Shown here in pieces: positions 6,303 to 11,347 of a stretch of DNA of 30,561 bases (its first letter is position 1; each line of letters begins with the position of its first letter). Below the pieces are notes generated by a model. The model did not search any database, was not told where the DNA came from, and worked only from the letters and a program-made list of their open reading frames with translations. Both the position numbers and the translations under genes were made by a program. This DNA comes from a virus. The DNA lies in the IMG/VR virus record IMGVR_UViG_3300030090_001003, positions 1 to 30,561 of that record. One strand, written 5' to 3'.

Positions 6303-8971
6303 TATGCCGCCTTAGCGGATAGAACTCTGTATTCTACCGTAATATCATTAATGGAAAATTTAGAATCTTCAGCTAAGTTATCAAAATTAAACCTAAACAT
6401 TATACTTTGACAAGGTGTTAAGTCTTTAGCTGAATCAACTAAAGGTAATTTTAATGTGCTGTAATACTTATTACTAGAGTGTGTTTGAGGTATAGTAGAT
6501 GATGATGCGTTCAAAGAAACCCAAGTTCCACTTTGGTTTATCATAAATTCAATTTCAGAATCATTGATAGCGGTAGAGCCACTATGCCTGTAGTTAATAT
6601 ACAATGCGTAAATTTTCTTTTTATTTCCGGGCTTACCAAAATCTAAATCTGGAGTTTGCAATCTATAATACTTATGACCTTGCTCTGCAGTTTGGTGTTG
6701 AGTTACTATAACCTTACCTGTTCCAGCACCATTAACATCAACATCATCAGTATCATAAGCAACAATCAGCCTACCACTACTATCATTTACCATGTTAGAT
6801 ATATGAGCATCGTAAGTTGTACCAGAGCTAAGTGCCGCATTATTTGCATTTGGAGCCGCATCTTTTCCAAAATACCAACTCCTGTATCTGAAGTCGTAAT
6901 AGAATGCGTCTTCTGCGTCTTGAGCTTGGTCAATAAAAATAGCTTGTTTAATTTCTGCTATATAACCAACAACTGGATTGGTAAAATTAGACCATTCAGT
7001 TCCAGACAAAACAGACTGACCAGTATCTGCGATTCTTCCATCAGTGATATTAACTACATCTGTTCCATTAAATAAGTAAGCTCCATTTTTATTACCCCAA
7101 ACAACTCCAAATTCTGTATTAGCTACACTATAAGTATATTCAACACCAGCATACGGAACTGTTTTTTCTAAAAACCAACCACTTGGAGATGGTGATGCTA
7201 TGTTTAATATTTGCAAAGTTCTTTGCTTAAAAGCTAATAACCTATCTGAGTAATAAGCTAAACAAGTATAATCCTCTCCGTCTCCTTTAGTCACATCAAG
7301 TTTATTAAACTCTGGGAATGTGTCATACTTACCAATTTGACTAAACATTATCCTATCACCAAAGTGAGGAAAGATTGTATTTACATCAGTGGCTCCAGCT
7401 GAACCATCGTCATACTTAACATTAGCCACAAACGCTCTATTTCCCCCTATTACGGCTGTTTTATAACCAGAGCCTAGTTGACCAAAGGCTATCTGTTTTG
7501 TGGACGGAGCAAAGCCATTTAAAGACTCGTATGAATCTAGGTTTGGTTTTGATGATTGCAGGTCAAAATCTCCATGAGTTGTTGTTGCAGATATTCTAAA
7601 CTCTCCAGTTCCATCTGCGTTCCAATTAGAAAAGATATCATTTAAGCTAGCCCTAGCTCCATTTTTAATATCTATATCTATAAATAAAATCCACTCTTCA
7701 TTACTCCCAGATTCTCTTATGTATATTCTGCCACCGCTAACTCTTTTAGGATAGTCACCATTAGCAGAACTACCAACTGTGTTAGCGTAGACATTTACAT
7801 TAAACTTCTTACCTTCGCTATGATTAAATGCTCCACCAGAAAACAACGTTATTAAAGATTCTTGGTTTCCATCATATATAAAGGTTCCTCCAAACTCATA
7901 ACTCTTACCTTCCCACTCACCATCTTCTGTGCTTGTTTCAACGCATAAACCCCATCCTGTTCCACCTGTTGGTAAGTACTCATCAGCACCATCTAATGAA
8001 CTAGAAGCTGTTCTATCACAATCACTTGGTGGAGAAAGTGTGTTGTCTTCTGCGTACATATTAGCAGATACAGTAGTTCCAACTGTGTCGCCAACAACAA
8101 ACTGTTCTCTTTCTATATGACCAAACCATTTAGGAGTTGAAAGATTACTATGGTTCCCATCAGCTACTCTTAAAACTCCACCAGTGTAGTAATAAACAAA
8201 CTGAGGAGCACTATCAGTATCTGTTACTATTGTGATAGCATCTGTTGTCCAGCTTCCATTACTGTCTATAAACACATCAACTTTTCCATCGTCTGTATTT
8301 CCTATTGCCAACATATAATCACCAACAAAACCCGGTCTTTTAAAGTTGACATCTGTATCAGCTGAAACACTTTCATTAGTTATATTTTCAGCTAATTGCA
8401 ATGTGTTTAAAACATAGGCTCCGTTCATTGTGTGGTCGTTACTGCTAGCAATAGATGCGTTAGCAGTTGTAGCTTGTGATAATATTCCTACAATAGTTTT
8501 TACTCCATTGTTTCCAGATTGATTTGCTCCAGAAATTACAATTTTTTGAGGTAAGTCTCCAACGGCAGATATTAAATTATTTGCAGTCCAAAAATTATCA
8601 TCATTAATCCAAACTTTATTTGTATCGTGAAATAGTATTGCGTAATTACCAGAACTATGTTGAGATATACTTGTAGCACCACTGGCTCTTGCTGTCACAC
8701 CACCAACACCAACAGGGTCATCAGCTTCAAAATAAAATAAACCATATCCGGGATTTATTGATGCCGTTGCTACATCAACTGTGTTATTGGCTAATGTCAA
8801 TGCACTGCCATTTGTTGCAGTATTCCATTCTGACCTAGGTATTAACTCTCCGTTTTTAGATACATTAAAATTAATGCATTCAGCCATTTCTCCAACACTT
8901 AAATCTCTAGGATTTTTAACATTGTTAATTCCTTGACCAAAGTTATTTATAGAAAAGTATTGTTTAGGCAC
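6302..8971 (-). CDS. Tail hub / tubular protein, beta-propeller type (P22 gp10 / T7 gp12-like)
   Basis: An 889-residue protein. Its N-terminus has the typical opening of podovirus tail hub proteins: a Phe-Gly-x-Gly-Ile-Asn element, then DP/NPRDL, a GEMAECINF segment and GELIPR (residues about 8-46). A second diagnostic region at about 570-632 has DRLLAFKQRTLQIL, then 'TVPYAGVEYTYSVANTEFGVVW' type residues ending in GAYLFNG, the pattern seen around the central propeller of this family, where it marks the plug of the tail tube. The remainder is Thr/Asn/Gly-rich beta structure. The start codon is GTG, not ATG (8969-8971), and shares one base with the TAG stop of the endolysin gene. I am fairly sure it is a tail tube/hub protein. 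Assignment to gp10 or gp12 specifically is by pattern memory, not alignment. Confidence 0.7.
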   Translation of the reverse strand: MPKQYFSINNFGQGINNVKNPRDLSVGEMAECINFNVSKNGELIPRSEWNTATNGSALTLANNTVDVATASINPGYGLFYFEADDPVGVGGVTARASGATSISQHSSGNYAILFHDTNKVWINDDNFWTANNLISAVGDLPQKIVISGANQSGNNGVKTIVGILSQATTANASIASSNDHTMNGAYVLNTLQLAENITNESVSADTDVNFKRPGFVGDYMLAIGNTDDGKVDVFIDSNGSWTTDAITIVTDTDSAPQFVYYYTGGVLRVADGNHSNLSTPKWFGHIEREQFVVGDTVGTTVSANMYAEDNTLSPPSDCDRTASSSLDGADEYLPTGGTGWGLCVETSTEDGEWEGKSYEFGGTFIYDGNQESLITLFSGGAFNHSEGKKFNVNVYANTVGSSANGDYPKRVSGGRIYIRESGSNEEWILFIDIDIKNGARASLNDIFSNWNADGTGEFRISATTTHGDFDLQSSKPNLDSYESLNGFAPSTKQIAFGQLGSGYKTAVIGGNRAFVANVKYDDGSAGATDVNTIFPHFGDRIMFSQIGKYDTFPEFNKLDVTKGDGEDYTCLAYYSDRLLAFKQRTLQILNIASPSPSGWFLEKTVPYAGVEYTYSVANTEFGVVWGNKNGAYLFNGTDVVNITDGRIADTGQSVLSGTEWSNFTNPVVGYIAEIKQAIFIDQAQDAEDAFYYDFRYRSWYFGKDAAPNANNAALSSGTTYDAHISNMVNDSSGRLIVAYDTDDVDVNGAGTGKVIVTQHQTAEQGHKYYRLQTPDLDFGKPGNKKKIYALYINYRHSGSTAINDSEIEFMINQSGTWVSLNASSSTIPQTHSSNKYYSTLKLPLVDSAKDLTPCQSIMFRFNFDNLAEDSKFSINDITVEYRVLSAKAA

Positions 8972-9351
8972 TAGTCTCGTAACTCCACATGAACTAAGTC
9001 ATCGAAACCATTATCTTTTACATCTCCATCACTATCCCAGTCTCCACCCCAGCGTATATTAATTCCAAGTTGTTTACCTATACCACGAATCATTCCACCC
9101 ATATAGTGAAACCCGTCTCTGTTTTCCCAGTCTATTGGGTAGGGGGCTAAGTCTACCGCTTTGCCTTCCATGTGTTTAGAGTACTTTACTTTCGTCGCCC
9201 CCTTAGCCAACAGCTCTTTCTGACGTTCTTCACTTCGCAATCCTTCTATAATGGTAACATCCATAATTTTAATTAACTCATTAAGCACGTTAACTAATCT
9301 AGCGTCAACACCCTTAAGTCGTTTTTTGCTTTTTTTACCAAACTTATACAT
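8971..9351 (-). CDS. M15-family peptidoglycan endopeptidase (endolysin)
   Basis: A 126-residue zinc peptidase of the phage T5-type L-alanyl-D-glutamate endopeptidase group, which cuts the stem peptide of the cell wall at lysis. The expected landmarks are present in order: KGVDARLV at 13-20, EGLRSEERQ at 36-44, the zinc-binding SKHMEGKAVDLAP (His60, Asp67), WGGDWD at 101-106, and DLVHVEL with the catalytic Asp118 and zinc ligand His121 spaced as in T5 endolysin. An upstream ATG at 9423 would add 24 residues but overlaps another gene. The ATG at 9349-9351 gives the family-typical MYKF start, has a purine-rich ribosome site, and begins one base after the stop of the 54-residue gene. There is no signal peptide, so export needs a holin. 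Confidence 0.93.
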   Translation of the reverse strand: MYKFGKKSKKRLKGVDARLVNVLNELIKIMDVTIIEGLRSEERQKELLAKGATKVKYSKHMEGKAVDLAPYPIDWENRDGFHYMGGMIRGIGKQLGINIRWGGDWDSDGDVKDNGFDDLVHVELRD

Positions 9352-9352
9352 A

Positions 9353-9517
9353 TTATCTTTTTCTTTTCTTTGCTGTTTTAGCGGCTCTTTTAAATGCACC
9401 AGCTTTAGGTGCACCTTTAGCACCTTTCTTTCTCATTTTTTCACCACTGCCAGCTTTTATTCTTTTTCTTTTAGCGTGTATGTTGGCGTACAAACCTTTT
9501 TTCTTTTTCTTTGGCAT
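9353..9517 (-). CDS. Small very basic protein (54 aa)
   Basis: A 54-residue protein with an N-terminal PKKKKKGLYANIHAKRKRI segment, a GSGEKMRKKGAKGAP centre and an AFKRAAKTAKKRKR tail. I recall near-identical small proteins in many marine phage contigs, where they are annotated as hypothetical. The function is unknown; the charge suggests nucleic-acid binding. The ATG overlaps the stop of the preceding gene by one base (TAATG) and the stop sits one base before the endolysin start, so the triple is a tightly coupled set. Confidence 0.85.
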   Translation of the reverse strand: MPKKKKKGLYANIHAKRKRIKAGSGEKMRKKGAKGAPKAGAFKRAAKTAKKRKR

Positions 9518-9696
9518 TACTTACCTACCTTTTTTTGTGCTATTTTATGAGACTGGGTAAAAGTTTTACCATTCTTCATAGCAGTAACCATAGACTTTAA
9601 ATGCTTAACAGTATGGTGTTTTGCGTGTTTCTTCATAGCGTTTGCCTGCCTAGTTGTTAAGCTTGCTACAGATACTCCTTTTACTTTTTTAACCAT
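9517..9696 (-). CDS. Small basic helical protein (59 aa)
   Basis: A 59-residue, Lys/His-rich protein: VKKVKGVSVASLTTRQANAM at the start, then KKHAKHH, a helical LKSMVTAMKNGKTF segment and a HKIAQKKVGK end. The regular spacing of hydrophobic residues suggests two amphipathic helices with basic faces. I recall similar proteins beside the 54-residue family in marine phages, with no known role. The start lies one base after the TAG stop of the 100-residue gene and the stop overlaps the next start by one base. DNA or RNA binding is the simplest guess from charge alone. Confidence 0.8.
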   Translation of the reverse strand: MVKKVKGVSVASLTTRQANAMKKHAKHHTVKHLKSMVTAMKNGKTFTQSHKIAQKKVGK

Positions 9697-9697
9697 T

Positions 9698-10000
9698 CTA
9701 TCTACACTTCCACCTTCTACGTGCTTGCCTTATTCTAGAATTGGGATTGTTTCTAGTTTTAGCAGAACTTCTTTTTAATTGACCTAAAGACCTAGCACAA
9801 TAAGACTTACGTCTTTTGGCGGCTTTACTTCCCTTTTTAACTTTGCCTGTAACTGCTGTTTTTAACTTAGAACCGGGGTTGGCTTTTCTATAAGCCCTAA
9901 CCCCTTTCTTAGTCATACCAGCTCCTGACTTAGTAGGTCTGTAATTACCACCTTTGCCAGTAGTTCTTCTTATTGGTTTCTGTCTTTTTCTTGAAGCCAC
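9698..10000 (-). CDS. Small Arg/Lys-rich protein with conserved Cys, marine-phage family
   Basis: A 100-residue, strongly basic protein. Conserved-looking blocks are MTKKGVRAYRKANPGSKLKTAVTG (here residues about 29-52), GSKAAKRRKSYCARSLGQL (about 57-75) and a C-terminal RRWKCR. I recognise this as a family common in aquatic phages and some algal viruses, listed as a domain of unknown function (I believe DUF6321, not checked). The two Cys residues may matter structurally. It starts with GTG at 9998-10000, which shares its first base with the TAG stop of the preceding gene. Virion DNA binding or host takeover are both possible. Confidence 0.82.
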   Translation of the reverse strand: MASRKRQKPIRRTTGKGGNYRPTKSGAGMTKKGVRAYRKANPGSKLKTAVTGKVKKGSKAAKRRKSYCARSLGQLKRSSAKTRNNPNSRIRQARRRWKCR

Positions 10001-10230
10001 TATTTAGAACCAAAAGCTTTAGAAAAAAACCCTTTCTTTTTTTTCTTGCCTTTTTCAGCTAGCTTTTTTTTCTTTTTTCTTTTCTTCTTAATGTCATCTC
10101 CATACATTAAAGTATACGATGCATTACCAAGATGTAAATATTCTTCTACATTGTGATTATTAATTTTCATCTTATCGGAAGAAGATAAGGCACAAGAAAT
10201 AACTATAGTGTATACAACATTCATATCCAT
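10000..10230 (-). CDS. Hypothetical protein with poly-lysine tail (76 aa)
   Basis: A 76-residue protein with a short hydrophobic N-terminus (about 4-16, too short for a firm membrane helix), a polar middle with several His and Tyr, and a C-terminal third made almost only of Lys and Arg, ending GFFSKAFGSK. The lysine codons produce two runs of eight A on the coding strand, near 10,062-10,069 and 10,037-10,044. Two ATGs are possible (10230 or 10224); the first is chosen since it lies just past the stop of the upstream gene. Not recognised by family. It may bind nucleic acid or acidic membrane surfaces. Confidence 0.6.
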   Translation of the reverse strand: MDMNVVYTIVISCALSSSDKMKINNHNVEEYLHLGNASYTLMYGDDIKKKRKKKKKLAEKGKKKKKGFFSKAFGSK

Positions 10231-10555: not shown

Positions 10556-10873
10556 CTAGTGTTTTCCATTTATTCTTGATAAAGAACCTTTTATTTCTGA
10601 TACTTGATTATCAAGGTCATTAACTTCTTTTGTTAATGCGTCAAACTTTCTATCAAGTTTATCATCGGATTGGTTCCACCTATTAATTAATTTTATAATC
10701 ATACCTTCCATATTCTGCAACGTTTCAGATTGACCAGCATTCTCTACTTTTAAAGCTTCTAATGTTTCTTGTTGCTTCGCAGACTTGTTGGATAACGAAA
10801 CTACTAAATAAACAAACATAGCTCCAACTACTCCTATCATTCCAGCTTCGCCATATATTTGCATAAAATCCAT
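10556..10873 (-). CDS. Membrane-anchored coiled coil, holin-like (105 aa)
   Basis: A 105-residue protein with a membrane helix at about 11-28 (GMIGVVGAMFVYLVVSL), a basic patch just after it, then a long coiled coil (about 35-100, with heptad-like LDRKFDALTKEVNDLDNQV). The layout resembles BhlA/XhlA-type holin-associated proteins with a cytoplasmic coiled coil. The ATG shares one base with the stop of the upstream membrane gene (TAATG). Together with its neighbours it makes three consecutive one-helix membrane genes, which is common for phage lysis cassettes that split pore and regulator roles. Confidence 0.68.
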   Translation of the reverse strand: MDFMQIYGEAGMIGVVGAMFVYLVVSLSNKSAKQQETLEALKVENAGQSETLQNMEGMIIKLINRWNQSDDKLDRKFDALTKEVNDLDNQVSEIKGSLSRINGKH

Positions 10874-11193
10874 TATTTTCTCTTTTTCTTTCCCCAGCTA
10901 AGTGGGTTAATGTTAAATTCTTTTTCATAAAAAGCTACTTTCTCTGCCAGCTCTTCTCGCTCAATCCTTTCTTCCACGATATGTTTATTAAGTAAATCCC
11001 CAATTTGTTTATTTGCTGTAGTAATGTTATCTTCAAGGTTTGAAATTCTTGTTTCAATTTGCCAATAGCCATACACCAGCATTCCGATAAGTACTCCAAT
11101 TTGACCAAGCCACTTAAGATTAATACTAACAATGGCGTTGTCATCAAGAATAGTAGTGCGATAACTTCTGGCGGTATTTGGTTTCTCATTCAT
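10873..11193 (-). CDS. Membrane coiled-coil protein, candidate inner spanin or holin partner (106 aa)
   Basis: A 106-residue protein with a polar N-terminus, one membrane helix at about 30-46 (GQIGVLIGMLVYGYW), a coiled coil (about 48-92) and a short end NPLSWGKKKRK. The helix-plus-coil layout matches an inner-membrane spanin, and a small lipoprotein gene overlaps its start, as expected for an outer spanin partner. Against this, the very basic C-terminus would favour a cytoplasmic tail. The ATG at 11191-11193 lies eight bases inside the end of the lipoprotein gene. I recall similar proteins in marine phages, annotated only as hypothetical. Confidence 0.65.
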   Translation of the reverse strand: MNEKPNTARSYRTTILDDNAIVSINLKWLGQIGVLIGMLVYGYWQIETRISNLEDNITTANKQIGDLLNKHIVEERIEREELAEKVAFYEKEFNINPLSWGKKKRK

Positions 11194-11347
11194 TTATCTC
11201 TTCAATTATTACTTGTGTACTATCTTGTGATTTATCAAGAGCATACCCCATAACAGACCAACCTTCGCACCCTACTGTACTAACCAACATAAGTATACAC
11301 AACAGGAATATTATAAGATGTACTGATGTATTCATATATAATTTCAT
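11186..11347 (-). CDS. Small lipoprotein, candidate outer spanin (53 aa)
   Basis: A 53-residue protein with a signal peptide: short N-terminal region with Lys2, hydrophobic core VHLIIFLLCILMLVS, then a lipobox-like STVGC with the lipidation Cys at residue 27. The mature part is only 27 residues. Thr at -3 is unusual for a lipobox, while Gly at -1 is standard. Outer-membrane lipoproteins this small are typical of two-gene spanins, which fuse the membranes in the last step of lysis. The gene ends eight bases inside the membrane coiled-coil gene. A second ATG at 11335 could be the true start. The ribosome site at either is weak. Confidence 0.62.
   Translation of the reverse strand: MKLYMNTSVHLIIFLLCILMLVSTVGCEGWSVMGYALDKSQDSTQVIIEEINE

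Follow-up and report, generated by a model that had tools for sequence, protein, structure and literature searches.

Gene layout of the basic block

The window, which is the whole analysed stretch of 30,561 nucleotides, is a 30.6-kb IMG/VR virus record of the HTVC010P-type pelagiphage kind, an assignment made because its P100 protein is 92% identical to the HTVC100P copy and 75% identical to the HTVC010P copy. Four small genes, named here by the lengths of their products, lie on the minus strand in the order P76, P100, P59, P54 and are followed on the same strand by an M15 peptidase endolysin gene. P76 (10000..10230) has a hydrophobic N-terminal stretch and a conserved poly-Lys/GFFSKxFGSK C-terminus, and is a candidate exported lysis accessory. 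P100 (9698..10000), which has a GTG start, is a stand-alone DUF6321 (PF19846) protein; P59 (9517..9696) is a predicted three-helix mini-protein similar to phrog_31838 with five invariant histidines; and P54 (9353..9517), which matches phrog_16028, carries the motif GLYANIHAKRKRI..GSGEKMRK. The endolysin (8971..9351) most likely starts at the ATG at 9351, since a longer GTG reading frame, 8971-9423, would overlap P54. The head and packaging genes of the window (terminase, portal, capsid) run leftward from 26.6 kb.

The first-pass annotation had described four coupled Lys/Arg-rich small reading frames of 54, 59, 100 and 76 residues by the endolysin, and the coordinates, junctions and charges agree with this description. 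One-base overlaps occur at 10000 and 9517, and one-base gaps at 9697, 9352 and 10231. The net charges are +36 for P100, +23 for P54, +15 for P59 and +12 for P76, with Lys plus Arg fractions of 0.36, 0.44, 0.25 and 0.25, respectively, P76 being basic in its C-terminal half only. These adjacent genes are the top four in basicity among the 37 genes called in the window, an adjacency with a chance probability of 5e-4.

Against relatives with pS above zero, pN/pS is 0.06-0.12 for P54 (5 comparisons), 0.13-0.30 for P59 (8 comparisons) and 0.22-0.53 for P76 (8 comparisons). For P100 it is 0.10-0.14 (5 comparisons), besides a value of 0.82 from one unreliable alignment at 20% identity. These values show that all four frames are real genes that encode constrained proteins.

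Conservation of the four genes as a block beside M15 endolysins, which the first-pass annotation had named as a check, did not survive the survey of gene order. Besides the window, just four close relatives show the complete order from P76 to the endolysin, and HTVC010P and HTVC100P keep DUF6321 and lack the arrangement, so that a conserved M15-adjacent block is rejected outside the close relatives. A single functional unit of four proteins is likewise ruled out by the different anatomy and distribution of P76.

DUF6321, phrog_16028 and phrog_31838

The expectation that such proteins represent recurrent marine-phage families held for P100 (DUF6321), P54 (phrog_16028) and P59 (phrog_31838), which are found in many loci. 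All three families are catalogued with no function assigned.

P100 matches DUF6321 with 45 bits against a curated cut-off of 28.5, residues 27-97 aligning to positions 6-72 of the 72-position profile, and carries the RRKSFCAR motif and a C-terminal W.C with a cysteine pair. The DUF6321 alignment has five invariant positions over 42 sequences. Among 82 distinct scored domains, a set that leaves out two hits with no motif and one that is cut, the pair is C/C in 73, L/A in 8 and C/G in 1. The two conserved cysteines disappear jointly, for example in L225, L096 and L094 (L numbers denote the loci compared), which suggests a disulfide or metal pair. The AlphaFold2 model of the domain has a pLDDT of 88.6 and a pTM of 0.71.

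DUF6321 is present in 482 phage records (one query), and scans of IMG/VR with P100 and with P54 each gave at least 600 entries. In T4-like cyanophages it forms the C-terminus of a protein that follows terS and is 134 to about 590 residues long, and the version of about 500 residues sits directly between terS and terL. The GC119 protein of these phages shares the RRKSFCAR...W.C core with P100 and has DUF6321 at its extreme C-terminus, whereas P100 is the domain alone and lacks the N-terminal part of 100-500 residues. No paper was found for DUF6321 by name in the open-licence literature, and a wider search of open-licence papers on T4-GC119, DUF5872 and DUF6496 gave PMC3037559 as the sole match concerning DUF6321/T4-GC119; the accessible part of that paper terms T4-GC119 a hypothetical protein within a mobile cassette. 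Shortly after DUF6321, HTVC100P and HTVC010P encode a different small basic protein, GLYYNIN-KKK (L002:5590-5748 and L003:5585-5722), which may fill the slot of P54.

P59 covers nearly the whole phrog_31838 profile (E 3.9e-6, positions 3-51 of 51). Over 27 sequences from diverse relatives 13 of its 59 positions are invariant, among them H24, H27, H28, H32 and H50 (HxxHHTxxxH and one more), which lie around a short helix-loop-helix and form a possible metal site. Its AlphaFold2 model has a pLDDT of 93.4 and a pTM of 0.78. No Foldseek match in the PDB at E 0.001 or better was obtained for DUF6321 or P59, and VIA-align comparisons of these models with the PDB gave Z below 2 in one case and at most 3.7 in the other. 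The viral library gave only other DUF6321 proteins above noise, and the PDB sequence search gave no significant match, the best E being 0.44 (P54).

P54 covers nearly the whole phrog_16028 profile (E 2.3e-24, positions 2-49 of 50), and of its 54 positions 15 are invariant over the 45 aligned sequences and 10 more are nearly so. The invariant positions of P54 and P59 take in Gly, Glu, Asn, Pro and the five His, and these non-basic residues, with the pN/pS values, exclude a chance similarity of low-complexity sequences. P54 proteins of about 50 residues in S-B28 and CRP-810 (L150:3995-4144 and L149:4995-5153) are labelled 'Ribonucleotide reductase A subunit', which is a mis-annotation.

P54 domains in bacterial contigs

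P54 is also found in genome contigs of several phyla, often beside phage head genes, and some betaproteobacterial stretches that hold it have no match to seven locally built head-gene profiles. Its neighbours in the betaproteobacterial loci L258 and L261 are PLDc_2, SLT and Dus genes. Only scattered genomes carry cellular P54 (4 of 41 in one genus and 4 of 150 across its family), so that it is not a core gene, and a plasmid search with a P54-like query gave no match.

In L272 and L262 the P54 domain precedes Lys/Ala tails of PAKK/AKK repeats, and in L258 a Lys-rich tail. The L272 tail resembles Pfam HC2 (histone H1-like) with E 1.6e-7, which is below the curated cut-off. The pairing with H1-like tails in bacterial proteins suggests a DNA-directed role of P54. 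The HC2 nucleoproteins are highly basic, as P54 is, and the betaproteobacterial protein has P54 N-terminal to its HC2-like tail. The window P54, in contrast, has no AK-repeat tail, and its domain is sequence-specific with Gly and Glu; a Pfam scan of it matched no family, HC2 included.

Two further observations concern P54-containing loci. A P54 domain lies within a 617-residue protein (L268:3552-5402) that had no Pfam match and whose N-terminus presumably resembles a nucleotidyltransferase. Cytidylyltransferase/NMNAT-like proteins are reported from cyanophage virions. In L291 and L297, P54 co-occurs with a RRKSFRARHNCDNPGPK.KARYWSC motif that resembles the DUF6321 core and is possibly a distant variant of it.

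Linkage and genomic neighbourhood

P54, P59 and DUF6321 genes lie close together in many loci. DUF6321 is present in 51 of the 79 P54-seeded IMG/VR loci, within 1 kb in 50 of the 51; 16.4 such pairs were expected and 29 was the maximum in 10,000 simulated placements, the loci being mutually related so that trials are not independent. The median gap is 21 bases, and DUF6321 comes first in 36 cases and second in 15. P59-seeded loci contain DUF6321 in 24 and P54 in 12 of 61, always within 1 kb. The isolates P-SCSP1u, S-B28, HTVC031P and P-SCSP2, which belong to different lineages, have such pairings near scaffold and MCP genes, and coordinates place the genes 16-94 bases apart in HTVC131P, Eistla, HTVC168P and DSL-LC07. 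P54 and DUF6321 are fused in one reading frame in L253 (137 residues) and L284 (205 residues), and are also joined in phrog_11180 and phrog_28131. The cassette is not obligatory, because loci seeded with the closest DUF6321 relatives hold P54 in only 8 of 80 cases and P59 in 1 of 80. DUF6321 lies within 1.5 kb of P54 in 16 of 56 genome-contig loci.

The nearest large proteins that flank P54 (n=123) match TerL phrog_2 (21), scaffold phrog_1052 (14), portal phrog_156 (11) and major head phrog_283 (5), counts which are not additive since one protein may match several families. At distances of over 4 kb from P54 such matches are sparse: of the 82 proteins there, 4 match a head-tail adaptor family and 2 each match major head, scaffold and portal families, and TerL fell outside the 25 best-represented families. 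TerL was again the top neighbour in genome contigs (phrog_2, 9 of 96). Of the 83 neighbours of P59, 8 match a scaffold family, 7 and 5 match portal families and 3 a head protease family, and 7 match an integrase family. T7-like phages have these genes either in the stretch from portal/scaffold to capsid or in that from capsid to tail tube. Outside the HTVC010P-type group, the genes that adjoin P54, P59 and DUF6321 serve the head and packaging rather than lysis.

Cyanopodovirus loci such as L201:2193-3392 have the photosystem gene psbA adjoining P54, with 9 of the 123 flanking proteins matching phrog_182.

Virion evidence

The evidence from virions concerns large DUF6321-tailed proteins, not the small stand-alone P54, P59 and P100. 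Gp137 of S-CREM2 (108049-109521) has DUF6321 at its end and was reported in the proteome of CsCl-purified virions from 4 unique peptides that cover 4.1% of it; Table 3 of PMC10665884, as available, gives no peptide positions, and the DUF6321 part may be absent from the virion or cleaved. The DUF6321 homologue of S-SCSM1 (42662-44215) is labelled 'virion protein' in its record, and the accessible part of PMC9602691 gives 45 virion proteins of this phage by mass spectrometry. The 'structural protein' labels on homologues in S-B43, S-P4, S-E7 and Sf-FS3 may be inherited by similarity. The cryo-EM paper on P-SCSP1u, in its available part, describes a capsid with no decoration proteins and a capsid count of 415, and is silent on the two proteins that lie between MCP and adaptor.

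Possible roles of P100, P59 and P54

The first-pass annotation had proposed that the four proteins condense DNA, neutralise charge in the capsid, or act on the host nucleoid or membrane at lysis. A DNA or capsid role is best supported for P100, P59 and P54, by their families and head-gene neighbours, and a membrane or lysis role is possible for P76. With moderate confidence, P100, P59 and P54 are read as a late set of folded cationic proteins that would bind phage DNA at head assembly or packaging, the DUF6321 module at least being in the particle, with P76 as a separate, probable lysis accessory. The three would be synthesised with the late genes and bind the phage DNA directly at the packaging stage, and their small stand-alone versions may enter the head and be at least partly retained. 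The benefit could be compaction or protection of the DNA, or help with its loading or ejection. The location of the window block in the lysis region counts against this reading, as do the low peptide coverage of S-CREM2 gp137, the few DUF6321-seeded loci with P54 or P59, and the statement of PMC3281028 on basic proteins given below.

Plain charge neutralisation is too simple an account, since 15 of 54 positions in P54 and 13 of 59 in P59 are invariant and many of these are non-basic. As an estimate of scale only, if each of the three were present in 415 copies, the number given for the P-SCSP1u capsid, they would together balance 44% of the phosphate charge of a 35-kb genome. Mere charge padding is disfavoured because of the residue-specific conservation and the confident predicted folds, which argue against protamine-like charge carriers and for small folded proteins with specific surfaces.

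The main rival, a possible but less probable one, is that these proteins are packaging or assembly factors that leave before maturation, acting as DNA-bridging adaptors or chaperones with terminase, portal or scaffold. Such factors would fit the position that the DUF6321 protein has in T4-like cyanophages, directly between terS and terL, as well as the adjacency of P54 to TerL, portal or scaffold and the P-SCSP1u capsid described, in the part of the paper available, with no decoration proteins. A departure before maturation, however, is at odds with the DUF6321-tailed protein reported in S-CREM2 virions and with the 'virion protein' label in S-SCSM1.

A function of the block as lysis accessories, that is, as cationic membrane disturbers like the disruptins, is improbable, and P76 is the one protein for which it is most plausible. 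According to the accessible part of PMC12819732, disruptins are short amphipathic peptides that phages encode and that lysis of the outer membrane requires; P76 is small, cationic and beside an endolysin. P54, P59 and P100, on the other hand, have no hydrophobic segment (maximum 12-mer values of -0.24, 0.73 and -0.06, respectively) and are tied to head genes elsewhere. Still more improbable is that these proteins bind the host nucleoid late in infection and displace the bacterial chromosome or condense it. Such a role would suit their strong positive charge and the presence of the P54 domain, joined to H1-like tails, in proteins of bacterial chromosomes, but not the position of the genes among late head genes in many lineages, as takeover genes are usually early, nor the virion association of large DUF6321 proteins.

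P76 and the upstream lysis region

P76 has no family match at a useful level, and among the loci compared no homologues were found beyond nine close relatives, all HTVC010P-type loci beside M15. In these relatives a hydrophobic 12-mer (Kyte-Doolittle 1.8-2.9) lies in a variable N-terminus, and the poly-Lys GFFSKxFGSK end is near-constant. An exported accessory of lysis is the probable role of P76, which is kept apart from the other three because of its hydrophobic start, its poly-Lys end and its location only beside M15. A strongly amphipathic peptide is not supported, the moment computed from the sequence of the conserved C-terminal helix being low (0.16); this and a signal-like start distinguish P76 from the disruptins. 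A spanin-like pair that possibly lies upstream already also speaks against a lysis accessory.

This possible spanin-like pair lies upstream of the block, at 10556-11347, together with small membrane genes that are possibly holin-like. A coiled-coil protein with one transmembrane segment (10556..10873, minus strand) weakly matches the Rz-like spanin family phrog_739 (E 2e-4), and a 53-residue reading frame (11186..11347, minus strand) has a lipobox-like STVGC motif and is what we take to be a possible o-spanin; both are given as context.

Basic proteins and packaged phage DNA

A bolder proposal, which is doubtful at present, is that P54, P59 and DUF6321 make up a modular, chromatin-like kit of folded cationic domains in abundant tailed phages of aquatic habitats, that one of these domains is common to bacterial H1-like nucleoid proteins, and that this kit is packaged with the genome and condenses it. 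If true, it would contradict the view that tailed phages use no basic proteins on packaged DNA. PMC3281028, in the part available, says that evidence is lacking for any large contribution of basic proteins to the neutralisation of phage DNA, and given that statement the proposal would matter if virion proteomics confirmed it. The linkage, the fusions, the virion link and the link to H1-like tails were not found in print among open-licence papers. Together these findings give uncharacterised genes in the most abundant phages of the ocean a direct test, namely whether such phages package DNA with dedicated basic proteins. The DUF6321 and P54 families are very common.

The chlorovirus virion DNA-binding proteins A278L and A282L are also basic and packaged with dsDNA, as described in the accessible part of PMC3281028. 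The analogy is functional only and drawn by description, since they are large proteins (about 60 kDa), and the algal virus that encodes them has an internal membrane.

Phage DSL-LC04 encodes, near its DUF6321 gene, a small basic protein (L155:6511-6696) similar to DUF5872 (E 1e-3, below cut-off), a family which is also listed for an algal giant virus.
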